The position numbers and the translations under genes are program-made. From Bdellovibrio bacteriovorus (GTDB lineage: Bacteria; Bdellovibrionota; Bdellovibrionia; Bdellovibrionales; Bdellovibrionaceae): DNA of 64,000 nt. Below the pieces are notes generated by a model. The model ran no database searches. It saw only the letters and a program-made list of their open reading frames with translations, and was not told the DNA's origin. The stretch's first letter is position 1. Every line of letters starts with the position of its first letter. Positions 35,219 to 48,734 of the stretch are shown one piece after another. Location: NCBI RefSeq assembly GCF_001592755.1, contig NZ_LUKF01000007.1, forward strand, positions 1 through 64,000. Reading direction: 5' to 3'.

Positions 35219-35250
35219 AAAAAAAGGGCTCTTACCGAGCCCTTTTTTAT
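35219..35250. terminator. Bidirectional terminator between the lipoprotein and ExbD genes
   Basis: AAAAAGGGCTC pairs with GAGCCCTTTTTT around a short loop; A and T runs on both sides allow termination in both directions. Confidence 0.9.
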
Positions 35251-35657
35251 TATTTTTTATCGATGCTAATTGCGAATTTTTTGACTCCGGAACCCTTGAC
35301 GATATCAAGAACCCCAACCACTTTTCCGTGGGGCACATCTTTATCGGCCGAGATAATGGCTTGAACATCGGCATTCTTAGCCACTTCTTCCTGAGCTTTT
35401 GCTTGCACATCAGCCTCACTCACGAAAGAACCGTTCAAATTGATTCTTCCATCGGCAGTAAGGGCAATGTTCAATTTACTTGGAGCCGTTTGATCTCCGC
35501 TAGCTGCTTTCGGCAAATTCACGTTGATCGTGGGCTTCATGAACATAGGAGCTGTCACCATGAAGATGATCAGAACCACCAGGATGATATCCACGAGCGG
35601 GACGACGTTAATGTCCGCTATGGCTTCGTTATCATTTCCACCGTCTTTAAATGCCAT
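35250..35657 (-). CDS. ExbD/TolR family proton-channel subunit
   Basis: The 135-residue protein has a short cytoplasmic N terminus, a membrane helix with the critical aspartate (VVPLVDIILVVLIIFMVTAP), and a periplasmic domain of ExbD/TolR type. With ExbB it turns the proton gradient into force on a partner protein. It follows the ExbB-like gene after three bases. No tonB, tolA, tolB or receptor gene is adjacent, so the energised partner is unknown. Confidence 0.92.
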   Translation of the reverse strand: MAFKDGGNDNEAIADINVVPLVDIILVVLIIFMVTAPMFMKPTINVNLPKAASGDQTAPSKLNIALTADGRINLNGSFVSEADVQAKAQEEVAKNADVQAIISADKDVPHGKVVGVLDIVKGSGVKKFAISIDKK

Positions 35658-35660
35658 GGT

Positions 35661-36290
35661 TTAAACACCTTTTTTCTTAGCATAAGCAAGGCAAAGTTCT
35701 TTAACGCTCTCTAAGTTTTGGAAAATGCTTTTCACTTGTTTGCTGTAGTAGTTGTAAAACGCTACTGCTGGGATCGCCACGAAAAGGCCCGCTGCCGTTG
35801 CCACAAGGGCCATAGAGATACCGGCCATCACCGTTTGTTGTCCCGCTTCTGGAGTTGTCGCCAAATCATTGAAGGCCTTCATGATACCAAGAACCGTACC
35901 AAATAGACCGATGTAGGGAGCATTGGAACCTACAGTCGCCAAGAAGCCCAAGAATTTTTCTAGCTCAGGACGTTCTGTTAAAGCGAATGTATTAAAAATT
36001 TCTTCTAGACCTTTGCTGCCTGATTCACGCATGTGTTTCATAGCGTAACCTGCGGCGCGACCCTCAACAGAGTTTGGATCTTTCGCAAGATCTTCCACAT
36101 CATCAAGACTGTTGCTTTGCAAAGCCAGCTTAATGCGTGCGCGAACACGTTGTGATTCTGCCGAGATTTTTTTAAGTGCAAAATAACGTTCCAAAATCAT
36201 GCCGATGCTGAGCACACTGAGCACAAGTAAGATCCATAAAACGACCTGATCTGCCAGGTGGGCTACTGTAAATATTTTTTCTGTGAGCAT
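35661..36290 (-). CDS. ExbB/TolQ/MotA-type proton-channel protein
   Basis: This 209-residue protein has three membrane helices, the last two within ATVGSNAPYIGLFGTVLGIM and MVALVATAAGLFVAIPAVAF-like segments, as in ExbB and TolQ. It starts with a good ribosome site (GGAGGAAAT). It is operonic with the ExbD-like gene. Such pairs in Bdellovibrio serve uptake, envelope constriction or gliding; which of these applies cannot be read from the sequence. Confidence 0.92.
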   Translation of the reverse strand: MLTEKIFTVAHLADQVVLWILLVLSVLSIGMILERYFALKKISAESQRVRARIKLALQSNSLDDVEDLAKDPNSVEGRAAGYAMKHMRESGSKGLEEIFNTFALTERPELEKFLGFLATVGSNAPYIGLFGTVLGIMKAFNDLATTPEAGQQTVMAGISMALVATAAGLFVAIPAVAFYNYYSKQVKSIFQNLESVKELCLAYAKKKGV

Positions 36291-36367
36291 CGGTGATTTC
36301 CTCCAAATCTTTGACTGCGCAAAATTATTGATCCATTATCTCTAAAACCATTACTTCCGGTCAAGGT

Positions 36368-38176
36368 ATGCAGAAAGTCATTTTAACTCTTCTTCTCACA
36401 CTCCTGAGCTTGGTCCAGCTTTCTTGCAAGGCGAACGACAAAAACTCCGTTTTAGTCATCGCCGTGGATGAGTTGACCATTAGCGACGTGCTATGCAGTC
36501 AGGAAGAAGCAGAAAGATCCGGCTTTCAATTGCTTTGCAATGAATCGGTTCGTTTCACTCACGCTTTTTCACCTTCGACTCTTTCAGTTCCGGCATTGGC
36601 ATCCTTGCTTACGGGTCTTTACCCATATCAACATAAAGTGCGCCACAACGGTCGCCCTGGTCTAGCTCCCGAAATTGAAATGGTTTCTGAGCTTGCTCTT
36701 CAACAAGACTATCGTACGAGTTTCTTTTCAGGCGGAGCACCCGTTTTTCGTCGTTCCGGGTTGAACCAAGGCTTTGAACTTTTTGAAGACAACATCGTTC
36801 CCACCTTTTCAAGTCTATTTCGCCCTTTTAAAAAGAACGCGGATGCCTTCACGCAATGGCTGCAACAGGACGTCGATACAGATGCGTTTTTTAGCGTGCT
36901 TTATGTTCCTGATTTGATCTTCACCACCACCGAAACCGTGACGGATCTGGGGGAAACCAGAAATCTCAGTTTTGAAAGTCAGCTCGACGAGCTTGATGAA
37001 AGCCTCTATGAACTTTTTCAAAATCTGAAGGCGGCAAAACGCTGGGATAATACAACCGTGGTTCTTGTGGGCCTGAACGGTCACACGACCAGTGACCGCT
37101 ACAAAGAACTTTCGTCGCTCAACTTGCACGGTGAAAATACACAGGTGGCTTTGTTCATTAAGCCGGCGCAAAAAAGAAAACGGGATTTAGCCATTCATTG
37201 GAAAGTGGATCAGAACGTCACTTTAGTGGATGTGGGCCGCACTCTTTTTGAACTTCTTGGTGAAAGTAATCTGGATGCGGACTCTAGCTTTCCGGTCCAC
37301 TCTCTTTTAGGCGCTTTGAAAAGTCCGAACGTCACTTGGCCGGAAGATCGTCCCCTTTTGATTGAATCTGGATGGGCTTTTTGGCGAAAAGCGGGACCGA
37401 TTCGCACAGCCGCCATTTCTCACCATGTTCTTTACATCAATGATGAAAATCCTTTGCTCTACAACACATTGGTGGACCGTTTTGAAGTCAATCCCTTGCC
37501 CCTTTTACAAGAAAGTATTTTGCCGACGACACAAAAGCTGCAGGGCCTTTTAAGCAAGAATCAATTTCCGGTATTCCCGCCGATTCAATCCGAGTGGACG
37601 AAGAAATTAAGCCTGCCTTTTGCGCGATGGATGCGTGCGGATCAGGAAGCAGAGTTGTTGCGAGATCTAAGACGTCTTTTAATGCAGCAGCCGCAAAGCT
37701 TGGACCTATTAAATTGGACAGCTCAGATTGCTTTAAATCAAAAAGACTGGGAAACGCTTAAAAATCTCGGCCTTAAAAATAAGATTTCTGTATGGCAGTA
37801 CGTCGCTGAAAGAAATCTGAACGCCAAATCAACAAAGGTTGTTGATTCGTGCTTCCCTTTATTGACGGCACCGAGCATTGAAACCGAACAGCTTAAAAAC
37901 TGCAGCGACCCTTTATTTCTCGAATATATCGATTGGATTCGTGCCGACGTGCGCGGGCTATCTAAGGAAGCGCAACGAAAACGTTTTGAACGCTCGTTCA
38001 GAAACTACATGTTAGATCAACAAATTCAGCGTGCGAATATTGCTGCGGGACTTATTTGGGATACATCGCGCGAAAACATCTTCGCTCCCTCACGCACAGA
38101 GTTCGCCCTGAACCTTCCAGAATACGCGAAAATTCGTTCGCAGGCGTATAAAGCTCTACAAACGGAAGACTACTAA
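36368..38176 (+). CDS. Sulfatase-like (alkaline phosphatase superfamily) lipoprotein
   Basis: The 602-residue product has a lipoprotein signal (VQLSC, Cys20) and a sulfatase/phosphodiesterase-like N-terminal domain: AVDELT, then AFSPSTLSVPALASLLTG in place of the usual sulfatase active-site segment, and VVLVGLNGHTT for the metal site. The CxPxR signature of true sulfatases is absent. The C-terminal 230 residues look helical and repeat-like. The enzyme probably acts on an envelope or prey polymer, but substrate and activity are uncertain because the canonical nucleophile motif is not evident. It reads towards the FHA operon with only three bases between stops. Confidence 0.75.
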   Translation: MQKVILTLLLTLLSLVQLSCKANDKNSVLVIAVDELTISDVLCSQEEAERSGFQLLCNESVRFTHAFSPSTLSVPALASLLTGLYPYQHKVRHNGRPGLAPEIEMVSELALQQDYRTSFFSGGAPVFRRSGLNQGFELFEDNIVPTFSSLFRPFKKNADAFTQWLQQDVDTDAFFSVLYVPDLIFTTTETVTDLGETRNLSFESQLDELDESLYELFQNLKAAKRWDNTTVVLVGLNGHTTSDRYKELSSLNLHGENTQVALFIKPAQKRKRDLAIHWKVDQNVTLVDVGRTLFELLGESNLDADSSFPVHSLLGALKSPNVTWPEDRPLLIESGWAFWRKAGPIRTAAISHHVLYINDENPLLYNTLVDRFEVNPLPLLQESILPTTQKLQGLLSKNQFPVFPPIQSEWTKKLSLPFARWMRADQEAELLRDLRRLLMQQPQSLDLLNWTAQIALNQKDWETLKNLGLKNKISVWQYVAERNLNAKSTKVVDSCFPLLTAPSIETEQLKNCSDPLFLEYIDWIRADVRGLSKEAQRKRFERSFRNYMLDQQIQRANIAAGLIWDTSRENIFAPSRTEFALNLPEYAKIRSQAYKALQTEDY

Positions 38177-38179
38177 ATT

Positions 38180-38866
38180 TTATTCTTCAACTTTGATAAG
38201 GCCTAACCAAAAGGGAGCTTCAGGATTTTCCTGAATCATCTTCGTGGTGACGGACCCCAATTCCGCGGGTTCCGATTGAGAAACCCATAACGACGTCGCA
38301 ATCGTGGTACTGGCTAAAAGAATCAAACGGTCGCCGTCGTTCACGGAAGTATGCCCGCATTGAATGGAGCATGTTGGTTCAAGTCCCAATAGCTGCGCTG
38401 GAAGTGGTGGTAAAGAATCCCCATCGTCCAGACGTTCACTAGAAAGATCCAGCCCGATGGATAAAGGCTGAAGACTTTTATTTTTTCTTTGAATAAATAA
38501 ACTGGGGCAACCGACTTGCGCCCACGCCAGCTGAGTCCCGCGACGAAATAACGCCAGGATTTCGACGCCTGAAAAATACTCCATCTTATTTTCACCGCGA
38601 TACAGAATGTCGTTCGCAATAAGAATTCCCGTGCGAACGTAATTCACTTCATCGGTCAGACAGCTTAAAAATTCAAAAGGAGAGGTCACTTCCACATCGG
38701 ACTTGGCAGCGCTCACGTACTTTACGACTTCATCCAAAGCTCTTTGAGCGTGTTCTGGCTGTCCCCAAGATGTCGCCACAATAATCAAGGAGCCGTCGTC
38801 TTCTTGATGCACAAGAGGTTTAGGACGCAGAATTTTCGTACTGTAAGATCTTTCCTGCAACTTCAC
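38180..38866 (-). CDS. PP2C-like protein lacking metal ligands (last gene of the FHA/TadC operon)
   Basis: The 228-residue product starts at GTG overlapping the stop of the upstream FHA gene. Its order of features (VATSWGQ near the start, a central FRRGTQLAWAQVGCPSLFIQ, then VNDGDRLILLAST) follows the PP2C fold, in which the equivalent positions are usually a metal-binding DG, a VGDSR-type segment and a D-G-L motif. The aspartates that bind metals are not present at these positions, so it may be a pseudophosphatase. The PP2C assignment is my reading by eye, not a search result. Linkage to FHA genes supports it, because phosphatase and FHA proteins often work together. Confidence 0.55.
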   Translation of the reverse strand: MKLQERSYSTKILRPKPLVHQEDDGSLIIVATSWGQPEHAQRALDEVVKYVSAAKSDVEVTSPFEFLSCLTDEVNYVRTGILIANDILYRGENKMEYFSGVEILALFRRGTQLAWAQVGCPSLFIQRKNKSLQPLSIGLDLSSERLDDGDSLPPLPAQLLGLEPTCSIQCGHTSVNDGDRLILLASTTIATSLWVSQSEPAELGSVTTKMIQENPEAPFWLGLIKVEE

Positions 38867-40908
38867 TAAAGCGCTCCGTACTTCTTCAACTTGATATAAG
38901 CTTTTTTGTAATACTCACCATCCGGAACATCGAGCTCTAGAATTTTCTTCCACTTGTCCTTGGCTCCGGCTTTGGATTCGCCACCATCGACGTTACCAAA
39001 ACTTTCCTCCAAGATACCTTCTTGATAGATCGTCATCATTTGCTTGCGCAATTCACCGGTGTAGCGTTCGATCTTTTCTGGAAGCTCCGGATTTGTTGGA
39101 TCCATGACCCGCGCCTTACGCAATGACATGATGGCGCCTTTTAAGTTTTGAGCCTGATAGAATTTTTCTGCCTCCCCTTGCAAGGAAGCCGTTTTTGAAT
39201 TCATCATTTGGCGAATCGAGGCGATATTGCGTTTGGCTTGTCCCTTGTAGCCGTTAGGATCCGGCAACGGCGCGGCAATGACTTTTTCATAAGCCGCAAT
39301 GGCATCCAAAGGTTTGCCTTTTTTATGAACCTTTTCAGCACTGTTATAGATAGCACGAAGCTTGGATACTTGAGACTGATAAACTGCCTTTTCAGCGGCT
39401 TTGGCATCTCTTTGCGCCGTGATCGCTTCCACCTGAACTTTTAAATCCACAATCCTGGGATGTTCAGGGTTGAACTGCATGACGTCACTTAAGCATTCTT
39501 CCATTTCTGAAATGGTAATATCAGGGTTGATCTTTTTCTGACATTCCACTGCCGCTTTCTGAATTTTTTCTTCAGTTTCAATTTTCGCCTTTTCGATTTG
39601 TTCTTGGCGACGTTGTTGCTCTTGAATGAAGATCGCCTCTTTAGAAAGACGTTCGATCTCTCTGATATCCTCATAGTCCGGAACTAATTCCTGGATTTTG
39701 ATGATTTCATCTTGAGCTAATTGATACTTCCCTTGCATGTAAAGGTTCTTCGCATCTTTATAGCGCTGACGAACCAAAGCTTGTTGCTCTGGAGGAAGTT
39801 TATTAAAGATTTCTAAAGGCGAACCCGGCGCCGTCGAAGCACCTGGTTGTGGAACCGGAGGTTTTGCGGTGTCGTCACCGGAAAAGAAATAAGCCAAGGC
39901 CAACAAAAGAACCGCACCGGCAATAATCTTCGGACGATTCTTTTGAAAATCAAATTTCCCGTCAGCTACCGGAGTCGGGTGAGGCATCGGCGCCCCAGGA
40001 TATTGCATTTGCGGCTGATACGGCATTGGCGCCATACCACCTTGATAGGCCATCAGCTCATGCTGTTGTTGCTGCTGGTACTCCATCGGTAAAGCTTCAT
40101 TGCCCACCTGAACTAAAGGATTTGGTGGTGGAACATTGACCAACTCTAAGCGACTTTGGAAACCGGCGTCGTGCAATTCAAAATACAAATAGTTTGTCAG
40201 AACACTGATCGCATCGCCGGAACGTATGGTTGTCGGATCGCTTGAAGAGATCGGATTTCCATTCAACAAAGTACCATTCACGCTACCGAGATCAATAATC
40301 ACATATTGAGAACCCGCGCGACGAATTTCAAATTGGCGTCGGCTGACCCGTTGATCACGAATTTGGATGTGACATGAAGACTCTCGTCCCGCCACCCAGG
40401 ATTCACCGGCATCAAGACGAATTAATTCTTTGGCTTCATTGTTTTGCCCGTCCATGATTTTGATGTAAGCCACTTGGGGGGCCACACCAATCACAGTTTT
40501 TTCTTCACTGCCACCAAAGCCGTCGGAACCTTCGCCCTGCACGGCAGGAAGATTTGCAGAGGTGCCGCCACCATAATCCGGCGTTGGAGCTACGGATTCA
40601 TCTGAAGTTGTGGCTGCAGTCAGTACGAAATCAAATTCATAAGGAGGAATGGAAAATTGACTTCCATGCTCTAAGGCAAACTGTTGCACCTGTTCACCTT
40701 TGTACGTGATATCACCATAACGTGAAATCACATCCACGGTCCAAGCGCCACTCACGAACGACAGCTTAAAGTGTTCGCGCGAGATTCCTTTTTCGGGTTG
40801 CAAGACAATGTCACAATCCTCTTTACGACCCGCCACATAAGTGCGGTCTTCTGTAAGTTGAATGTCGTAAACGGGTTTGCCACGAAGGCGGACTTTGAGG
40901 CGGGCCAT
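38866..40908 (-). CDS. Membrane protein with two FHA domains and TPR-like periplasmic part
   Basis: The 680-residue protein has FHA domain 1 (about 1-100; VAGRKEDCDIVL and ISREHF), a spacer, FHA domain 2 (about 160-240; AGRESSCHIQI, VSRRQFEI and SVNGTLLNG), a Met/Gln/Pro-rich linker, one membrane helix (about 330-346) and a helical, TPR-like C-terminal region (about 370-680). FHA domains bind phosphothreonine peptides; here they would face the cytosol and the helical repeats the periplasm. The start overlaps the upstream stop as TAATG. Confidence 0.85.
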   Translation of the reverse strand: MARLKVRLRGKPVYDIQLTEDRTYVAGRKEDCDIVLQPEKGISREHFKLSFVSGAWTVDVISRYGDITYKGEQVQQFALEHGSQFSIPPYEFDFVLTAATTSDESVAPTPDYGGGTSANLPAVQGEGSDGFGGSEEKTVIGVAPQVAYIKIMDGQNNEAKELIRLDAGESWVAGRESSCHIQIRDQRVSRRQFEIRRAGSQYVIIDLGSVNGTLLNGNPISSSDPTTIRSGDAISVLTNYLYFELHDAGFQSRLELVNVPPPNPLVQVGNEALPMEYQQQQQHELMAYQGGMAPMPYQPQMQYPGAPMPHPTPVADGKFDFQKNRPKIIAGAVLLLALAYFFSGDDTAKPPVPQPGASTAPGSPLEIFNKLPPEQQALVRQRYKDAKNLYMQGKYQLAQDEIIKIQELVPDYEDIREIERLSKEAIFIQEQQRRQEQIEKAKIETEEKIQKAAVECQKKINPDITISEMEECLSDVMQFNPEHPRIVDLKVQVEAITAQRDAKAAEKAVYQSQVSKLRAIYNSAEKVHKKGKPLDAIAAYEKVIAAPLPDPNGYKGQAKRNIASIRQMMNSKTASLQGEAEKFYQAQNLKGAIMSLRKARVMDPTNPELPEKIERYTGELRKQMMTIYQEGILEESFGNVDGGESKAGAKDKWKKILELDVPDGEYYKKAYIKLKKYGAL

Positions 40909-42059
40909 TAGAATCTACCCTCCAAATTCAAAGTACACTCTTCATAGAATTGCTTAGCTTCTTTAAACGTCGGATCATCTTTGCGATTCTGAAGCATCGT
41001 CAGCACATTCTGATAATTTGATTGGCACATACGCCAATTTCTTTTCTCTCTATAACGATTGCCCTGAATCATATTAAACTTAACCAACTCATCAAACTTG
41101 ATCTTCGATAAATGATAATAACGTTTTGCAAGCTCGTTGTCAGGGTCCAGGTTTAATACGACCTGAAAAGCCTCACGTGCACGGGCATACTGACCTTGCT
41201 GAAAGTCGCGGAAACCTTTAATAAAGTTTTCCTGCGCACGACGATACTGAATCGAATCGTACTTTTCTTTCTTGATCGTCAGAAGTTCTTGCGAACGTTT
41301 TTCAGCATCCATCACGTCCTGCATACTGATCGAGCTTGTACGAATCGCATTGGGATCTTTTTTCGCCTTAGTACCCGACGAAGAAAAGAACCACCAGCCT
41401 ACGACCGCTACAATGGCAATGATTCCATAAAAACGAACTTTAGGATTTGCTAAAGGGCCACTCCCCGCAGCTTTAGGTCCTGGACCCGGCATCGGACCCG
41501 CACCCGGCGGAGGAGGTTGATATCCTCCATAAGCCATGGGCTGAGCTGGTGGCATTCCTTGCGGCGGCATTGTCGGCAATCCACCATAGCCTTGCGATGC
41601 ATTCGGTGTCGGCGTTGGTCGAGGCATCGGTGCTTGGGGCTTCGGCATTTGCGGCGTCACCGGAGACGGTGTCGGCGTTAAAATGGAAGCCGTGGGTGAA
41701 GCTAACGGTGCGGACTGAGATACCGACGGTGGCAACTCGGCCTGAAAACGAATCTCTGTATCGCCGATCTGAATCACCGAATCATTGTTAATGATTTCGG
41801 ATTGAATGTTCTGGCCATTCACCAAAACATAGTTCTTCTGACTTAGATTGACGATCACAAATTCGTGACCGGAACGCTGCTTGATTTCTGCATGTTGACG
41901 ACTGGTGCGTGGATCCCCTGAAAGAACGATATCATTTTCAGGGCCACGGCCGATAGTGACTGACGCTTTGGCAAAAGTAGACTTCAAGCCCGCATGCGGA
42001 CCTTTTGTCACTTCAATATTAAATTTAATTGTGTCTTTCACCTGAGGCGCAGCACTCAT
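40908..42059 (-). CDS. Membrane protein with FHA domain and TPR-like periplasmic part
   Basis: I use ATG 42059, overlapping the upstream stop (TGATG). It has an FHA domain near the N terminus (GRGPENDIVL, SRQHAE and NLSQKNYVLVNG), a long Pro/Met/Gly/Ala-rich linker, a single membrane helix (about 225-245) and a helical repeat region that continues to the end. The build matches the neighbouring double-FHA protein, with one FHA domain fewer; the three FHA genes probably arose by duplication. Its phosphopeptide partner is unknown. Confidence 0.85.
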   Translation of the reverse strand: MSAAPQVKDTIKFNIEVTKGPHAGLKSTFAKASVTIGRGPENDIVLSGDPRTSRQHAEIKQRSGHEFVIVNLSQKNYVLVNGQNIQSEIINNDSVIQIGDTEIRFQAELPPSVSQSAPLASPTASILTPTPSPVTPQMPKPQAPMPRPTPTPNASQGYGGLPTMPPQGMPPAQPMAYGGYQPPPPGAGPMPGPGPKAAGSGPLANPKVRFYGIIAIVAVVGWWFFSSSGTKAKKDPNAIRTSSISMQDVMDAEKRSQELLTIKKEKYDSIQYRRAQENFIKGFRDFQQGQYARAREAFQVVLNLDPDNELAKRYYHLSKIKFDELVKFNMIQGNRYREKRNWRMCQSNYQNVLTMLQNRKDDPTFKEAKQFYEECTLNLEGRF

Positions 42060-43726
42060 CAAGAGCTCCCTTCAGTCGGTGAAACCGTCACGATATAATA
42101 ATCAATTTCTTGTCCGCTGGAACACATCGCCTGACAGCTTAAGATACACAAGTGACCACTGAACTCTAACTGGTCCGTGTGGATCGCTCGCGGATTTTCT
42201 CGCGTGCGCGCTAAAAGACCATCCAGGTTCTGCTGAAGGGCTGCATCTGGAATAGTATTAAACATATGACCTTGCAGTTGCGCCACTTCGGCTCTGGCCA
42301 CTTGAGCAAACGAAGCACTGCACGCGATAATACGACCTTCACGTGAAATCGCTATTGACGGGAAGCCGATCAATTGCACTAGATTTTCCGCTTCGCCATC
42401 TTTATTGACAAAGCCTGCTGCTCCCGCGCCACCACTGTCTGCCTCACCATGAATATAGCGAGTTAAAAGACTGTTGATATTTCCAATCAAAGCCTGAAGC
42501 GCAGGGAACTGAAAGTTCACTTCTGTGTTGTCTTTCTTTTCTCTCATCGCGGTATCTAATTGCGCGTTCAAAGTGACAATCGGATACTCAATAAGTTTGT
42601 ACATGAAGAAATAAATCAACAGACCTATAAGAGAAGCGATCACAAGCGTCTGCATGAACAAACTAATTGCTCGTCCGTCATCAAAAGCCAAGCTTCCGAT
42701 ATCATAAAGCACGATGGCGTGCGCTTTCACTGCTTGTTCACCTGTGTTGGGATCAAAGAGCCCAATCGGGAAACTAGCTCCAATAGTTGAAGAATCCACT
42801 TCCACCGCTTGCGGGCGCATTTCGGTACGAGCTCTATGTACAAATGGCAAGTCCGGCGTCGTTCCCGCGCGAGTTGCCGGCGCCAGAATCATCCCGTCAG
42901 ATTGTTGCACAATCAGAACCTGCTTCACACCGTCTTCGGCTTCCGCGGCGTTTGTGCTTAATGACGAATAGCTGTTTTGAATAAGAGCCGCCTGATTGAT
43001 CGTCGCCAAAGTTCTTGCGATTGAAGCCGCGCGACGTTTACTTTCACTGATAATGCTGGCTCTTGTGATGGCCACCATCGGGATCATCGAAAGCAAGGTT
43101 GTCGAAAAAATGAATAATGCGACAAAGCCCAAAAGAACTAGTTTTAATTCCAGGAATTGTGGAAGTTTGTAAACTCCAGGCAAAGCCACACGATCTAAGT
43201 AATCGTTGACCTTATCCATCAAACCTTTAAATCCACCTTGTTGATACGCAGGCGCTGGCGCCGGAGCACCCGGTGCGGCGCCAGGCATGGCTCCCATCGG
43301 TTGCGGCATACCTTGAGGCATTCCATTCGGCATTCCCATTTGCTGCGGCATTTGCGGAGCCGCGCCTCCGCCGTAATAAGGCATCGGTGCCGGAACACCT
43401 TGTCCCTGTTGAGGGCGCGGTGTCTGCGGGCGAGCTTCAGGAGCTGGAATTACATCGACTAAAATATCATGTACGCCCAGCTTATCACCCAGTCTCATAA
43501 TACCGTTTTGAATACGGATACCATTTAAATAAGTGCCGTTGCTGGATTTCAAATCTGTGATGACAATTTTTTCTTTAAAGACAGCGACTTCGGTATGTTC
43601 TTTAGAAACACCTGGAGACACCAACTTGATATCACATTGCGGAGCACGGCCAATGAGGTTTTTCCCCATCTTAAGCTCAATAATTTGTCCCGCCTGAGGG
43701 CCGGTTAAAATCCTAAGCGCCCACAT
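42059..43726 (-). CDS. FHA - membrane sensor - PAS protein without an output domain
   Basis: The 555-residue protein has an N-terminal FHA domain (about 1-95; LIGRAPQCDIKL, VSKEH and SSNGTYLNG), a Met/Pro/Gly/Gln-rich linker (about 98-165), two membrane helices (about 190-210 and 350-372) bracketing an extracytoplasmic sensor-like domain, a helical HAMP-like stretch and a C-terminal PAS-like domain (about 435-550). No kinase, cyclase or phosphatase domain follows, so it seems to be an integrator or scaffold. The start is preceded by GGGAGATC and overlaps the DUF192 gene by 14 bases. Confidence 0.85.
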   Translation of the reverse strand: MWALRILTGPQAGQIIELKMGKNLIGRAPQCDIKLVSPGVSKEHTEVAVFKEKIVITDLKSSNGTYLNGIRIQNGIMRLGDKLGVHDILVDVIPAPEARPQTPRPQQGQGVPAPMPYYGGGAAPQMPQQMGMPNGMPQGMPQPMGAMPGAAPGAPAPAPAYQQGGFKGLMDKVNDYLDRVALPGVYKLPQFLELKLVLLGFVALFIFSTTLLSMIPMVAITRASIISESKRRAASIARTLATINQAALIQNSYSSLSTNAAEAEDGVKQVLIVQQSDGMILAPATRAGTTPDLPFVHRARTEMRPQAVEVDSSTIGASFPIGLFDPNTGEQAVKAHAIVLYDIGSLAFDDGRAISLFMQTLVIASLIGLLIYFFMYKLIEYPIVTLNAQLDTAMREKKDNTEVNFQFPALQALIGNINSLLTRYIHGEADSGGAGAAGFVNKDGEAENLVQLIGFPSIAISREGRIIACSASFAQVARAEVAQLQGHMFNTIPDAALQQNLDGLLARTRENPRAIHTDQLEFSGHLCILSCQAMCSSGQEIDYYIVTVSPTEGSS

Positions 43727-44063
43727 AAAGTTGATCTCCCACGCTGACTTTCATTTTGCTGACCGAACCTGCTGACATTTCAATGACGGAACTGGCTCCC
43801 CATACAGGAAAAACCAAACGTCCCGGTCGCACATCTTCGTAGATTGCTTTGACCTTCAAGTTTTTATCTACGAACACACAATCAATAGAAAACTGCATAA
43901 AGAACGTGTGAATGCTATTGCATCTTAAAATCCACAATGCTTCTTCTTGAGGTAATGAAGCGCGACCCAAAAGGCCCTTGCCCCGACTCCAGAAAGTTTT
44001 TGCTACTTTCAGATCCGGAACTAAAGTTTGATTTGTCGTTTTGTTAATCAAAGCTGCCATCAT
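43713..44063 (-). CDS. DUF192 family protein
   Basis: The 116-residue protein has the small DUF192 fold (COG1430): SRGKGLLGRASLP near the start, CNSIHTFFMQFSIDCVFVD and a final VWGASSVIEMSAG. Many DUF192 proteins have a signal peptide; this one shows none. Function of the family is unknown, although members are often seen near Tad pilus genes. It starts two bases after the TadC-like gene stop. Confidence 0.85.
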   Translation of the reverse strand: MMAALINKTTNQTLVPDLKVAKTFWSRGKGLLGRASLPQEEALWILRCNSIHTFFMQFSIDCVFVDKNLKVKAIYEDVRPGRLVFPVWGASSVIEMSAGSVSKMKVSVGDQLYVGA

Positions 44064-44065
44064 CT

Positions 44066-44974
44066 TTATTTCCCGCCGTACATAAAGGACACGGCCACCG
44101 GTCCAAACACGATAATGAAGACCGCTGGTAAAATAAATAACATCAAAGGAATCAAAATAGTCTGCGATGCTTTCGCACCGGCTTTTTCAGCGCGAACGAA
44201 TCTTTCTAGACGCATCTGCACCGACTGATCTTTCAAAACTTGAGAAATACTGGCACCCGTAGACTCGGCATCCACTAGAACCGCGACGAAGCTTGTAATC
44301 TCGTTCATATCCAAACGCTCGGCCATGTCTTTTAAGGCTTGGGTTTTGGAGGCACCGATTTTAATATCTTTCAAAACTGTTCCCAGTTCATCAGCAAGGA
44401 CGCTGTCTGTACCTTGTGCCTTATCCACGATTTTTTGAATCGCCGAAAAGAAATCCAGACCGGCTTCAACGGACAACGCCAAAAGATCAATGAAGAAAGG
44501 AAGATCTGCGCGCACAGAAAGCTCACGGCGTTTCTTTTCACCTTTGGCGTGAATTTGCGGAAGATAGAAACCCATCAATCCCACACCAATCACCATAGGA
44601 ACGGGCAATCCCAACTGCAAAGAGAAGTTCATGATCAAAAGGAAGATCGGGAACATCACGCCCCATAAAAGCTGCAAGCCAATGAACTCATCTTCGTTGA
44701 TTTCTGCGGAAAGACCTGAGGTCTTAATGTATTTGCGAACCCGTTTGCGATAACCTTCACTGCGAATTCTTAAAGCGTGCTGCAAAGTGAATTGATGAAC
44801 CAAAGGACGCGAAAAATTGATGATCGCGTTTTTAGATTTAACGGGTTCATCATTGTTGGCCCACGAAAGTTGTTGCTTGTCGGTGTTGCTTGCGAAAATG
44901 GAATTTACAAATAGGAACACCGCCACTCCCGCGAGTAGCAAGCCTAGAATCAGCATTAATTCTGCGCTTCCCAT
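44066..44974 (-). CDS. tadC: Type II secretion F / TadC-like inner-membrane protein
   Basis: The 302-residue protein is of T2SSF/TadC type: N-terminal membrane helix, then the F domain with ADLPFFIDLLALSVEAGLDF and QALKDMAERL, and a C-terminal pair of helices (about 270-300). TadC with TadB forms the platform of Tad (Flp) pili. No tadA, tadB or pilin gene is within the window, so it could be an orphan or partner a Tad system elsewhere. First gene of a six-gene operon, with a clear ribosome site (AAAGAGGC). Its start is only 29 bases from the divergent maf gene. Confidence 0.85.
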   Translation of the reverse strand: MGSAELMLILGLLLAGVAVFLFVNSIFASNTDKQQLSWANNDEPVKSKNAIINFSRPLVHQFTLQHALRIRSEGYRKRVRKYIKTSGLSAEINEDEFIGLQLLWGVMFPIFLLIMNFSLQLGLPVPMVIGVGLMGFYLPQIHAKGEKKRRELSVRADLPFFIDLLALSVEAGLDFFSAIQKIVDKAQGTDSVLADELGTVLKDIKIGASKTQALKDMAERLDMNEITSFVAVLVDAESTGASISQVLKDQSVQMRLERFVRAEKAGAKASQTILIPLMLFILPAVFIIVFGPVAVSFMYGGK

Positions 44975-45003: not shown

Positions 45004-45600
45004 ATGACACCACTTCAACTTGTCTTGGCATCAGAGTCTCCACGTCGTCGCGCACTTCTTAAAGAAGCTGGTTTTAACTTTGACGTGGTTCCATCTAAAG
45101 TATCGGAAATTCCTAACAAAAACCTGAATGTAAACGATCAGATTTTGGATATTGCTAGACGTAAAGCCAGAGCGGTGTACGAAGTTCTGAAGCCCGGTCG
45201 CACCGGCCCCTTCGTGATTTTAACGGCTGATACCGAAGTTATTTTCGGTGGGGCCCCACTCGGGAAGCCTTCAGATAAGGACGACGCCTACCGCATTTTA
45301 AAACTTTTGTCGGGGCATTTTCACGAGGTCATCACAGCCGTTTGCGTGATGAATAGCGAAACCGGCAAAGAGATTTCTCAAATTGAGACAACGCAGATTT
45401 ACTTTAAAGAACTTACCGACAAAGAAATCTGGGATTACATAAATACCGGCGAGCCCATGGACAAAGCCGGAGCCTATGGCATTCAAGGGGGCGGTGGAAA
45501 TTTCGTCCAAAAGATTGAAGGTCCTTTTGATAATGTTGTGGGCCTTCCCATGAAACTCGTGCGGACACTCCTCACTGAAATCGGTTTTATCCCTTCTTGA
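45004..45600 (+). CDS. maf: Maf family nucleotide pyrophosphatase
   Basis: Maf proteins hydrolyse nucleoside triphosphates such as dTTP, UTP or modified nucleotides and can affect septum formation. The 198-residue protein starts MTPLQLVLASESPRRRALL, the family signature, and contains TADTEVIF, LGKPSD and GAYGIQGGG. I use ATG 45004 because it gives the family N terminus; an in-frame ATG at 44890 lies inside the opposing tadC-like gene. The ribosome site is weak. Confidence 0.95.
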   Translation: MTPLQLVLASESPRRRALLKEAGFNFDVVPSKVSEIPNKNLNVNDQILDIARRKARAVYEVLKPGRTGPFVILTADTEVIFGGAPLGKPSDKDDAYRILKLLSGHFHEVITAVCVMNSETGKEISQIETTQIYFKELTDKEIWDYINTGEPMDKAGAYGIQGGGGNFVQKIEGPFDNVVGLPMKLVRTLLTEIGFIPS

Positions 45601-45728
45601 TTGCCTGTGAAGGTTCGCTTCGCAAACAGTCCTGTAAATAGTGCTGTCCAATTTGTTTACACCTCTCTAATTTTAGTGTTTTTGAGAAAACTCTGATACC
45701 TTCGGTTCGATCACCCGAGGGGGCTTTT

Positions 45729-46571
45729 ATGAACGTTCGATCATCTCTTCTGCTTGCTTCTGCCGCTTTGCTTTTTACGGCATGTACACAGAGCAAAACT
45801 TCTTCTTTAAATCTGGATAATAAAAATACATCGATTGTGAATGGGTCCGCAGCGTTGCCTCAGGATCCGGTGACAGCTTCCACGGTCGCCCTTATCGCTA
45901 AGTACGAAGGCAAGCCCTATTCTTTTTGTACAGGCACTTTAATTTCTGAAGATTTGGTTCTGACTGCGAACCACTGCCTGGAATACACAGAAAAACCCTC
46001 AGATGTTTGGATCTTTTTTGGAGCTGATCTTCCTAAAGAGTTTTCCGACACTCGCATTCTACAAGTCGAAAACTTTGAAAGACATTCTGGCTATGAAATG
46101 ATCTTTGATGAAACAGGCTATCCAGTGACTGGTATCAATGACGTTGCCGTCATTCGTCTTCAAAAAAAGGCGCCAGCAGGAACGACTGTGGTCCCGGTTC
46201 TAGCTCCTGAAACAGTATTAAAAGACGGCCAATCTTTGCTTCTGGCTGGCTACGGTTTGATCGACGATGTGAAAGGTGTCCGAGCTGAGGGCCTTAACTT
46301 CACTCAAGTTCCTCTTGCTAAAGTGTGGGACACTATCTTAGTCACCGATCAATTGCGTTCCGGCGCTTGCAGTGGAGATTCTGGGGGCCCTGCTTATATT
46401 GAAAATAATAACGGACTTGTCGTTGTCGGCATTACGCGTGGACCTCATGACAAAGCTCCTGATTGCCACACTTACGGTGAGTACACTTACGCTTCAAAAC
46501 ACAAAGAATTCATTTTGGAAGCTGCAAAAAAGCTGGGTGCGCAAGAACCTCAATTTGTCGACCTGAAGTAA
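45729..46571 (+). CDS. Trypsin-like serine protease lipoprotein
   Basis: The 280-residue product has a lipoprotein signal (LLFTAC, Cys19), then an S1 protease domain with N-terminal VNGS in place of the typical IVGG, catalytic His in LTANHCLEY, Asp in INDVAVIRL and Ser in CSGDSGGPAY. A Cys pair flanks the His (FCTG and NHC). It is likely anchored in the outer membrane facing the periplasm or surface. A second S1 protease is encoded at 17767. Confidence 0.9.
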   Translation: MNVRSSLLLASAALLFTACTQSKTSSLNLDNKNTSIVNGSAALPQDPVTASTVALIAKYEGKPYSFCTGTLISEDLVLTANHCLEYTEKPSDVWIFFGADLPKEFSDTRILQVENFERHSGYEMIFDETGYPVTGINDVAVIRLQKKAPAGTTVVPVLAPETVLKDGQSLLLAGYGLIDDVKGVRAEGLNFTQVPLAKVWDTILVTDQLRSGACSGDSGGPAYIENNNGLVVVGITRGPHDKAPDCHTYGEYTYASKHKEFILEAAKKLGAQEPQFVDLK

Positions 46572-46593
46572 GTCTTCTGTTACAGTTCAGGGC

Positions 46594-47253
46594 ATGGACT
46601 TAAAAACGCTTCACCAGCAAACAGCCCCTGCCCGCATCTTAGCTGTCTCTAAATTACAGCCCGAAGAAAAAATTCGCGCTCTTTATAGCGAAGGGCAGCG
46701 AATGTTTGGCGAAAACTACGTGCAAGAAGCCTTAGATAAAATCGAGCACTTGCAAGACCTTTCCGATATTCAATGGCACTTAATCGGCCACCTACAAAAA
46801 AATAAAGCGAAATACGTTGCCGGAAAGTTTGCGCTGATCCATTCGATAGATTCACTGGAACTCGCCCAGGTCTTAAGCCGTCAGTGCGAAAATAAAAACG
46901 TTCAGCAAAACATTTTGATTCAGGTCAATGTCGCTCAGGAAGAAACAAAGGGCGGTTTTGACAAAGATAGTCTGAAAAAACACTGGAACGAGCTCACCCA
47001 CCTGCCATGCCTAAAAATTAATGGCTTTATGACCATGCCACCATTAACCGAAAACCCCGAGGAAGTACGTCCTTACTTTCAGGAGCTTCGCAAGCTTAAG
47101 GAGGAACTGAAGAGTCAGACAGATCTGAATCTTCACCCTCTCAATGAGCTGTCAATGGGCACGAGTCACGATTACGGCGTCGCCGTCGAAGAAGGAGCGA
47201 CAATCCTGCGTCTTGGGACTATTTTGTTTGGCGAACGCCCCATCAAAAGGTAG
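46594..47253 (+). CDS. yggS: YggS/PLPBP-family PLP homeostasis protein
   Basis: The 219-residue protein is of the PROSC/YggS family that carries pyridoxal phosphate. The PLP lysine is in LAVSKLQ; other motifs are FGENYVQEALDK, WHLIGHLQKNK, VNVAQEETKGGF and MGTSHDYGVAVEEGAT. It begins the conserved block yggS-proC-divIVA-yggU seen widely in bacteria, 45 bases before proC. Confidence 0.95.
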   Translation: MDLKTLHQQTAPARILAVSKLQPEEKIRALYSEGQRMFGENYVQEALDKIEHLQDLSDIQWHLIGHLQKNKAKYVAGKFALIHSIDSLELAQVLSRQCENKNVQQNILIQVNVAQEETKGGFDKDSLKKHWNELTHLPCLKINGFMTMPPLTENPEEVRPYFQELRKLKEELKSQTDLNLHPLNELSMGTSHDYGVAVEEGATILRLGTILFGERPIKR

Positions 47254-47297
47254 GATTATTTTAGTCGCAGATAATACAGGCTGCGTTCTGGAGTAAC

Positions 47298-48125
47298 ATG
47301 AACCCACTGTTGAAAACGCAAAAAGTAGGATTTCTGGGTGCAGGGAACATGGCTCAGGCCATGATTAAGGGTCTCGTTGAAGGCGGAGTTCCAGCAAAGA
47401 ACATTTACGCTTCCAACCGCACTCCCGGTAAGCTTCAAAAACTCGAAGAACAATTTAAAATCAACCCGGTGTCCAGCAACGACGAACTGATCGATCGTTG
47501 TGACATTATTATTCTAGCGGTGAAGCCTCAAGACTTGCTCAATGCTCTTGAGCCTGTCACGCGTGCTTTTGATGAACACAAAATCGTCATCAGCGTGGCG
47601 GCAGGCATTCGCATGGAAAAGTTAGAACGCTTCATTCAAGGTGCTCGCTTGGCTCGAGTCATGCCGAACACGCCGTCTTTAATTGGCCGTGGTGTTATCG
47701 GCTATCTTCTAAATGATGACGACGATAACGCTCTTGAAAGCACCGTCGAAGATCTTTTCGCGCCTTTGGGTCGCGTAATCAAAGTGGGCGACGAAGATCA
47801 GTTCGAAGCGTTGATGATTTCTTGTTCTAGTGGCACCGGCTTTGTCTTTGAAATGATGATGTACTGGCAAGATTGGATCGAAGAGCATGGCTTTTCAAAT
47901 GAAGAAGCTCGCTTGATGACGATTGAAACCTTTGTGGGAGCTTCGTTGCTGGCAGCTCAGGCTCGCGAGGGCGTTGAAGATCTGCAAGCGCGAGTAACGT
48001 CTAAAAAAGGTGTCACCGCAGCTGGACTTCAGTCCATGAGAGAACTCGAAATCGAACGCGCTTTGCGCATTAGCTTTGAAAAAGCGGCTATGAGGAACAA
48101 AGAAATGGCGAGGGAAATCAAATAA
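47298..48125 (+). CDS. proC: Pyrroline-5-carboxylate reductase
   Basis: ProC reduces pyrroline-5-carboxylate to proline. The 275-residue protein shows the dinucleotide fold GFLGAGNMAQAMIKG, DIIILAVKPQ, RVMPNTPSLIGRG, and the C-terminal signature with TSKKGVTAAGL. GGAG lies five bases upstream of the ATG. It is in the yggS-proC-divIVA block. Confidence 0.95.
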   Translation: MNPLLKTQKVGFLGAGNMAQAMIKGLVEGGVPAKNIYASNRTPGKLQKLEEQFKINPVSSNDELIDRCDIIILAVKPQDLLNALEPVTRAFDEHKIVISVAAGIRMEKLERFIQGARLARVMPNTPSLIGRGVIGYLLNDDDDNALESTVEDLFAPLGRVIKVGDEDQFEALMISCSSGTGFVFEMMMYWQDWIEEHGFSNEEARLMTIETFVGASLLAAQAREGVEDLQARVTSKKGVTAAGLQSMRELEIERALRISFEKAAMRNKEMAREIK

Positions 48126-48185
48126 CCTTGCCCTGGCACAGACTCGCCCTTTATCCTTAATTCATATTGTTCAAGGAGGAACAAA

Positions 48186-48734
48186 ATGAGAATCACTCCT
48201 ATAGATATTGCTCATAAGTCTTTCACGAAAAAGATGATGGGTCTTGATGCTGACGAAGTTATGGATTTCCTTCAGCAAGTGGCTTCGCAAATGGAGTCTT
48301 TAATTCAAGAACGCAATGCCTTGAAAGAAGGCATCCGCGAAAAAGAACTTTCCTTGATGGAATACAAAGAACGCGATCAAGTGTTGAAAGAAACAATCGC
48401 AACAGCTTCGCAAATGGCCGAGCGTCTTCGTCAAGATGCAGACCGTGAAGCGAAATTGATCATTGCTGATGCTCAACAAAAAGCGGAAATCATCACTCGG
48501 GACTCTCGCGATTCATTGAAAAAGATGTATCAAGAAGTGACGGACTTAAAACGTGCTCGCATGCAGTTTGAAGCAAACTTAAAAGCTTTGGCCCAAGCTC
48601 ACCTTTCTTTGCTTGAGCAAGGTGAAAAGTACATGCCACAAATGCAGCTTCCAAACCATAACATCGCGAACACGAATGGAAATGGTAACGGACCGGGCCG
48701 CTCTCCCAATGTATCCCCTCTGTCTGCAGAGTAA
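48186..48734 (+). CDS. divIVA: DivIVA family cell-pole/division protein
   Basis: The 182-residue protein starts MRITPIDIAHKSF, the DivIVA membrane-binding region, followed by FTKKMMGLDADEVMDFL and a long coiled coil (about 35-150). In B. bacteriovorus the DivIVA protein is important for progeny cell shape. It has an excellent ribosome site (AGGAGGAAC). The C terminus (about 150-182) is Asn/Gly/Pro-rich. Confidence 0.94.
   Translation: MRITPIDIAHKSFTKKMMGLDADEVMDFLQQVASQMESLIQERNALKEGIREKELSLMEYKERDQVLKETIATASQMAERLRQDADREAKLIIADAQQKAEIITRDSRDSLKKMYQEVTDLKRARMQFEANLKALAQAHLSLLEQGEKYMPQMQLPNHNIANTNGNGNGPGRSPNVSPLSAE

Follow-up and report, generated by a model that had tools for sequence, protein, structure and literature searches.

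We analysed a window of 64,000 nucleotides of Bdellovibrio bacteriovorus DNA (contig NZ_LUKF01000007.1, positions 1 to 64,000), in which six open reading frames (ORFs) of the minus strand, lying between positions 38180 and 44974 where a first-pass annotation had placed them, encode in 5' to 3' order the Tad pilus protein TadC, a DUF192 protein, three FHA-domain membrane proteins (FHA3, FHA2 and FHA1) and a PP2C-like protein (Table 1). The ORF coordinates confirmed the tight packing described in that annotation: a 2-base gap separated tadC from the DUF192 gene, which overlapped the FHA3 gene by 14 bases, and the FHA3/FHA2, FHA2/FHA1 and FHA1/PP2C-like junctions were overlaps of 1 base each, the first of them counted from the FHA2 ATG at 42059 (4 bases if the TTG at 42062 is taken as the start). 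The Pfam T2SSF match of TadC corresponded to the TadB/TadC/GspF family, FHA domains were found by Pfam in three of the proteins, one of which (FHA1) carried two, and no Pfam or NCBIfam match was obtained for the PP2C-like protein. The DUF192 protein had no hydrophobic segment in the hydropathy plot and is probably cytoplasmic.

By gene order and annotation, the operon matched Bd0470-Bd0475 of B. bacteriovorus HD100. Because of this match it is not the undescribed unit that it had been taken for: Bd0470-Bd0475, with TadC first, has been named one operon (PMC12034629), two of its members are known predation genes, and the Kil Tad system of Myxococcus was known before to contain many FHA proteins. 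Both Bd0470 and Bd0474, the latter a protein with FHA domains and TPR, are needed for predation (PMC6561027, PMC12034629); a transposon mutant of Bd0470, the TadC gene, showed no attachment, killing or rounding of prey, and the Bd0474::tn mutant attached to prey without killing or rounding it (Duncan et al., PMC6561027). The FHA domains of Bd0474, at 2-100 and 134-241, have been predicted to be cytosolic with the TPR outside, and Bd0474 bound Bd0075 in a two-hybrid assay (PMC12034629). Expression of bd0470 was down in host-independent strains along with that of the pilus genes bd0108-0121 (PMC3818213), HD100 has four flp genes and Bdellovibrio no TadV (PMC5430801), and deletions of flp1, flp2 and flp4 have been published to leave attachment intact and abolish predation. 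The literature that we found on Bd0470-Bd0475 leaves the role of the operon unexplained; new with respect to it are the phylum-wide contiguity of these genes with Tad genes, the split of the two loci and the finding that the PP2C-like protein has lost its catalytic residues.

The Tad locus of the same genome (contig C19, locus L046) encoded TadE-like proteins, RcpC/CpaB (Pfam, 71 bits), a secretin (70 bits), a fused TadZ-TadA ATPase (T2SSE, 199 bits, with a ParA domain) and TadB (65 bits), and had no TadC; the profile search found no full-length TadC in this genome other than that of the window. A TadC profile found orthologues in 113 of 114 genomes sampled across the phylum Bdellovibrionota; FHA3 was detected in 112 of these genomes, and none of them lacked the TadZ-TadA ATPase. 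Outside the Bdellovibrionales, at least 25 genomes from eight families carried the FHA block and TadZ-TadA on a single contig and strand, in most cases separated by about 10-19 kb. We counted them by eye, 23 in coordinate tables and two more (G132 and G055) from loci read in sequence, and the count includes three genomes (G121, G088 and G133) in which TadC itself is elsewhere. The loci read in sequence (L077/L097, L078/L098, L091/L100, L092/L099, L112 and others) had the order TadC-DUF192-FHA3-FHA2-FHA1-PP2C, continuing after the PP2C or the FHA1 gene with small ORFs or genes for TadE-like proteins and then CpaB, the secretin, TadZ-TadA and TadB. The block was contiguous with TadZ-TadA in none of 27 Bdellovibrionales genomes, and hundreds of kb separated the two loci in relatives with closed genomes, G001 and G017 among them.

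These arrangements make it very likely that the operon is a detached half of the Bdellovibrionota Tad (type IVb/IVc) pilus machine. They support the view that the window TadC would be the missing partner of TadB and of the fused TadZ-TadA encoded on the other contig, as well as the proposed membership of the FHA, PP2C and DUF192 genes in the same ancestral Tad gene cluster, and the simplest reading is that of one ancestral cluster which split in the ancestor of the Bdellovibrionales. The pilus-linked machine put forward in the first-pass annotation is thus well supported by gene neighbourhood across other Bdellovibrionota families.

Within the order, the exact six-gene arrangement was present in 44 of the 51 Bdellovibrionales-type loci with enough flanking sequence, and the other seven kept TadC-FHA3-FHA2-FHA1, so that this core was retained in 51/51. 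The order was kept in 13 family- and order-level relatives wherever the contig allowed it, the DUF192 position between TadC and FHA3 was conserved, and the median gaps at the five junctions were -1, -15, -1, -1 and -1 nucleotides (71-92 orthologous loci). The packing is more than chance, and with both order and packing conserved in close relatives the proposed grouping of the six genes stands. A genome scan for relatives in Myxococcota returned, among the best 80 loci, essentially only loci labelled Bdellovibrionota or unclassified; one Streptomyces-labelled locus among them looks mis-binned.

Table 1. Genes of the operon and FHA domains encoded in them (positions in the window; pThr, phosphothreonine; aa, amino acids)
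Feature	Position	Strand	Remarks
TadC, Tad pilus inner-membrane platform protein, 302 aa	44066..44974	-	Pfam T2SSF 57 bits; HD100 Bd0470
DUF192 protein, 116 aa	43713..44063	-	Pfam DUF192 70.5 bits; PDB relatives 3m7a, 3pjy
FHA3, 555 aa	42059..43726	-	FHA 52.7 bits, weak PAS_4; Bd0472 by position
FHA2, 383 aa	40908..42059	-	FHA 57.5 bits; TPR_2 24 bits, just under cut-off; Bd0473 by position
FHA1, 680 aa	38866..40908	-	FHA total 97.7 bits in two stretches; Bd0474
PP2C-like predicted pseudophosphatase, 228 aa	38180..38866	-	predicted fold; Bd0475 by position
FHA domain of FHA3	43484..43657	-	G26, R27, S41, H44, N63 and G64 invariant in 39/39 aligned sequences
FHA domain of FHA2	41763..41960	-	pThr contacts mostly kept
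FHA domain a of FHA1	40648..40839	-	Asn of the pThr site lost; its Arg, Ser and His invariant throughout the order
FHA domain b of FHA1	40204..40398	-	pThr contacts mostly kept

FHA2 consisted of an FHA domain, a Pro-rich linker, a transmembrane segment (208-226) and TPR, and FHA1 of two FHA domains, a linker, a transmembrane segment (326-344) and TPR-like helices. The topology first suggested, with FHA domains in the cytosol and helical repeats in the periplasm, agrees with the hydropathy plot as well as with the prediction published for Bd0474. In FHA3 the FHA domain was followed by a disordered Pro-rich linker, two transmembrane segments (197-215 and 353-371 by hydropathy) enclosing an extracytoplasmic sensor-like domain, a long helix and a PAS-like domain; its AlphaFold2 model had a predicted local distance difference test (pLDDT) score of 76.7, its best multi-domain Foldseek match was a model of the sensor kinase WalK, FHA structures were also matched, and Pfam recognised no kinase domain in it. 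With Arg, Ser, His and Asn of the contact site all in place, the FHA3 domain is predicted to be able to read phosphothreonine.

The PP2C-like protein was modelled by AlphaFold2 with a pLDDT of 89.8, and the model matched the cyanobacterial phosphatase tPphA (Foldseek E 3.5e-13; VIA-align Z 19.7, root-mean-square deviation 4.0 over 208 residues), from which we are confident in predicting a PP2C fold. In the alignment, the aspartate of the DGxGG motif was present in 0/14 Bdellovibrionales sequences versus 16/17 orthologues from elsewhere, the N-terminal acidic residue likewise in 0/14 versus 16/17, and the SDG aspartate in 0/14 versus 10/17, and the GDSR aspartate was absent from both groups. 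The orthologues outside the Bdellovibrionales exceeded the Pfam PP2C cut-offs, and a separate PP2C of the same genome, which served as internal control, had its DGMGG, GDSR and SDG motifs intact. Judging from these residues, the Bdellovibrionales protein is probably a pseudophosphatase, that is, a non-catalytic part. Since the catalytic aspartates were lost in this order and the gene was not found in several other lineages, PP2C, the putative eraser, is the least conserved part of the block.

Inspection of the genes next to the operon showed none for a Ser/Thr kinase, in agreement with the first-pass annotation. The genome encoded one strong Ser/Thr kinase, a PEGA-domain protein of 650 aa on contig C16, besides which a single weaker match was detected. 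Relatives of the C16 kinase occurred in 107 of the 114 genomes and were never noted near the FHA block; as almost every genome of the phylum has this kinase, the fact that it occurs together with the operon says little. This kinase keeps phosphorylation control possible. The suggestion that the operon is phosphorylation-controlled is supported in part: the conserved phosphothreonine contacts and the presence of a kinase elsewhere in the genome speak for it, and the absence of a tie between kinase and operon and of catalytic residues in the PP2C-like protein speak against; control of the machine by phosphorylation appears plausible from the sequences.

On these grounds, we propose that the operon encodes the detached half of a Tad machine whose FHA proteins gate the pilus through phosphothreonine, a reading which as a whole we find somewhat more probable than its negation; for the phospho-gating step by itself we would put the chances at even. 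The three FHA membrane proteins would be arranged around the TadB/TadC platform, with cytosolic FHA domains that bind phosphothreonines on the platform, the motor or a kinase substrate, and the periplasmic TPR domains may bind envelope partners, as the published binding of Bd0474 to Bd0075 would exemplify. FHA3, built as a sensor kinase minus the kinase, could sense an envelope signal, and together the FHA proteins might gate pilus assembly or firing after prey contact. In the Bdellovibrionales the PP2C protein would be a non-catalytic, complex-binding part and not the eraser of a phosphate mark, which, if set and removed at all, might be handled by the conserved Ser/Thr kinase and the separate PP2C of the genome. 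A further and less probable possibility, which we offer tentatively, is that the Tad pili of Bdellovibrionota have a built-in phosphothreonine checkpoint, in which a sensor-type FHA protein, two transmembrane FHA-TPR couplers and a phosphatase on the TadC platform gate the pilus; the Bdellovibrionales phosphatase would then be a non-catalytic subunit by now, and the switch slow or one-way in attack phase.

Several observations weigh against the proposed gating machine. Its sensor and gating functions are deduced from the domain layout, FHA domains can bind without phosphothreonine too, and the C16 kinase is unlinked to the operon and near-universal. No sigma-28-like promoter above chance was found for tadC, unlike the FliA control reported for the Tad operon. 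TadC stood apart from the FHA block in G121, G088 and G133, the search for a PP2C gene behind the block found none in L093, L110, L174, L180 and family f18, and in the last of these (L089, L090) the block was strongly diverged, with FHA1 barely recognisable; therefore, not all six parts are needed everywhere. G028, the genome that lacked a TadC orthologue, is a member of the order, is listed as 100% complete and has the full Tad locus (L094:8931-17198) with no detectable TadC/FHA block. A block hidden at a contig end of G028 was considered and rejected, as the FHA fragment at that end is flanked by the wrong genes; the gap may be one of assembly, or the Tad system may run there without the block.

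The FHA proteins might instead be structural adaptors, with no phospho-signal involved, whose FHA folds make protein contacts without need of phosphothreonine; the degenerate FHA-like domain in the cytoplasmic part of SctD/YscD of type III secretion systems would be a parallel. Pfam also matches the YscD cytoplasmic domain, Foldseek lists YscD/PscD structures, no kinase is nearby, and PP2C is catalytically degenerate in the Bdellovibrionales and not found in some other lineages, all of which would suit such adaptors. However, the contact set (G-R, S, H, N-G) is invariant in FHA3 and mostly kept in FHA1 and FHA2, as would not be expected of a pure scaffold, and the neighbouring PP2C retains the DGxGG aspartate in most other lineages; we thus hold the adaptor explanation to be rather unlikely. 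It is improbable that TadC and its operon form a small secretion or envelope machine of their own, independent of TadZ-TadA and TadB and driven, for instance, by an orphan CpaF on contig C14. The two loci are far apart in the Bdellovibrionales and the extra CpaF-like ATPase (C14:240315-241412) does exist, but it has no TadB or TadC neighbour, the block and TadZ-TadA/TadB are contiguous in the at least 25 genomes mentioned above, and no other full-length TadC is available to the Tad locus.

Three NCBIfam profiles scored below their curated cut-offs (TagH 60 versus 120, GltG 32 versus 650 and SctD 28 versus 86 bits). The weak GltG match (NF033760) over the FHA regions, together with the exbB/exbD and sulfatase genes that adjoin the operon throughout the order, could suggest that the operon serves gliding motility through a GltG-like FHA/TPR complex and the neighbouring ExbB/ExbD-type proton channel instead of a Tad pilus. 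This is very improbable: the GltG scores reached 22-32 bits against the cut-off of 650 and covered the FHA region only, and the exbB/exbD linkage is confined to the Bdellovibrionales, whereas eight other families show the linkage to Tad genes.

The exbB/exbD and sulfatase-like genes occupy positions 35250-38176 of the window and are kept beside the operon throughout the order (loci L049-L060 and L114-L175), as are maf-yggS-proC-divIVA on the other flank (45004-48734). tadC and maf are divergent, with about 29 bases between their ATGs. Upstream of tadC the best sigma-28-like score was 19 versus a shuffled mean of 16.7 and maximum of 20, that is, none above chance, and a sigma-28 promoter shared by tadC and the Tad locus was therefore rejected; a better sigma-28 match sits upstream of the Tad locus. 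The sigma-70 promoter scan gave no excess.

Some further observations concern the Tad genes. On contig C1 (L047:9945-11107), far from Tad genes, there are two short overlapping ORFs of 164 and 245 aa, the former with a weak TadC match. Family f17 has open frames of 404-513 aa for TadC (L086:9660-10874, L088:9068-10594, L103:13793-15007); a TadC-DUF192 fusion was discarded, as DUF192 has an ORF of its own and the additional residues, about 100-200, are at the TadC N-terminus. In L086 this extension starts like a signal peptide and continues with a Sel1-like stretch, as judged by eye, and Pfam found no domain in that of L088. An RHS-repeat/DUF6531 protein of about 550 aa is encoded after TadB at the end of the Tad locus (L046:9686-11338, contig C19) and also in L094, L097, L098, L099, L100 and L102, from widely separated families, and could be a conserved Tad component or cargo. 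The orphan CpaF/TadA-like ATPase on C14 (370 aa; L195:8313-9425) is 44% identical to the Tad ATPase domain, and an FHA protein of about 410 aa is encoded 12 kb from it.

If the operon is half of the Tad machine, two predation-essential Bdellovibrio loci are joined into one system and the apparent absence of TadC from the Tad operon is explained. The gene block would be ancestral and common to most of the phylum, with its readers (FHA) conserved while the eraser (PP2C) decays, and the role of FHA proteins around predatory Tad pili becomes open to testing.

Compared with the canonical Tad/Cpa pilus (TadZ, TadA, TadB, TadC, RcpA and RcpC), the core parts are present here across two loci, to which Bdellovibrio adds three FHA proteins, DUF192 and PP2C; TadZ and TadA are fused and, in the Bdellovibrionales, the loci are split. 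The PpkA-PppA-Fha1 set of the Pseudomonas type VI secretion system also places an FHA reader and a PP2C on a contact-triggered envelope machine, and PppA (PDB 6jkv) was among the Foldseek matches of the PP2C-like protein; however, the machine is a different one, the Bdellovibrio operon lacks a kinase and its PP2C-like protein lacks catalytic residues, so the likeness is an analogy only. tPphA (PDB 2xzv/5iti) has the same fold as the PP2C-like protein, which is without the metal-binding aspartates at the aligned motifs. The Myxococcus xanthus Kil system is a Tad-like prey-killing machine encoded in two clusters (MXAN_3102-3108 and MXAN_4648-4661) with several FHA-domain proteins of no assigned role, and relatives of it have been reported in Bdellovibrionales (PMC8460266); a contact-signalling cascade has been suggested for these FHA proteins, without a mechanism (PMC8460266, PMC12075869). 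The KilF ATPase has an N-terminal FHA domain, a fusion that defines Kil, whereas in the Bdellovibrio ATPase the fusion partner is a ParA-like (TadZ) domain: none of the FHA matches in the genome overlapped TadZ-TadA (C19:272558-274771), for which Pfam gave ParA and T2SSE only. With its Tad system in two clusters and its many FHA proteins, the Kil machine of Myxococcus is the nearest known system to that of Bdellovibrio, which has three FHA proteins per block; this likeness does not imply homology of the individual FHA proteins.

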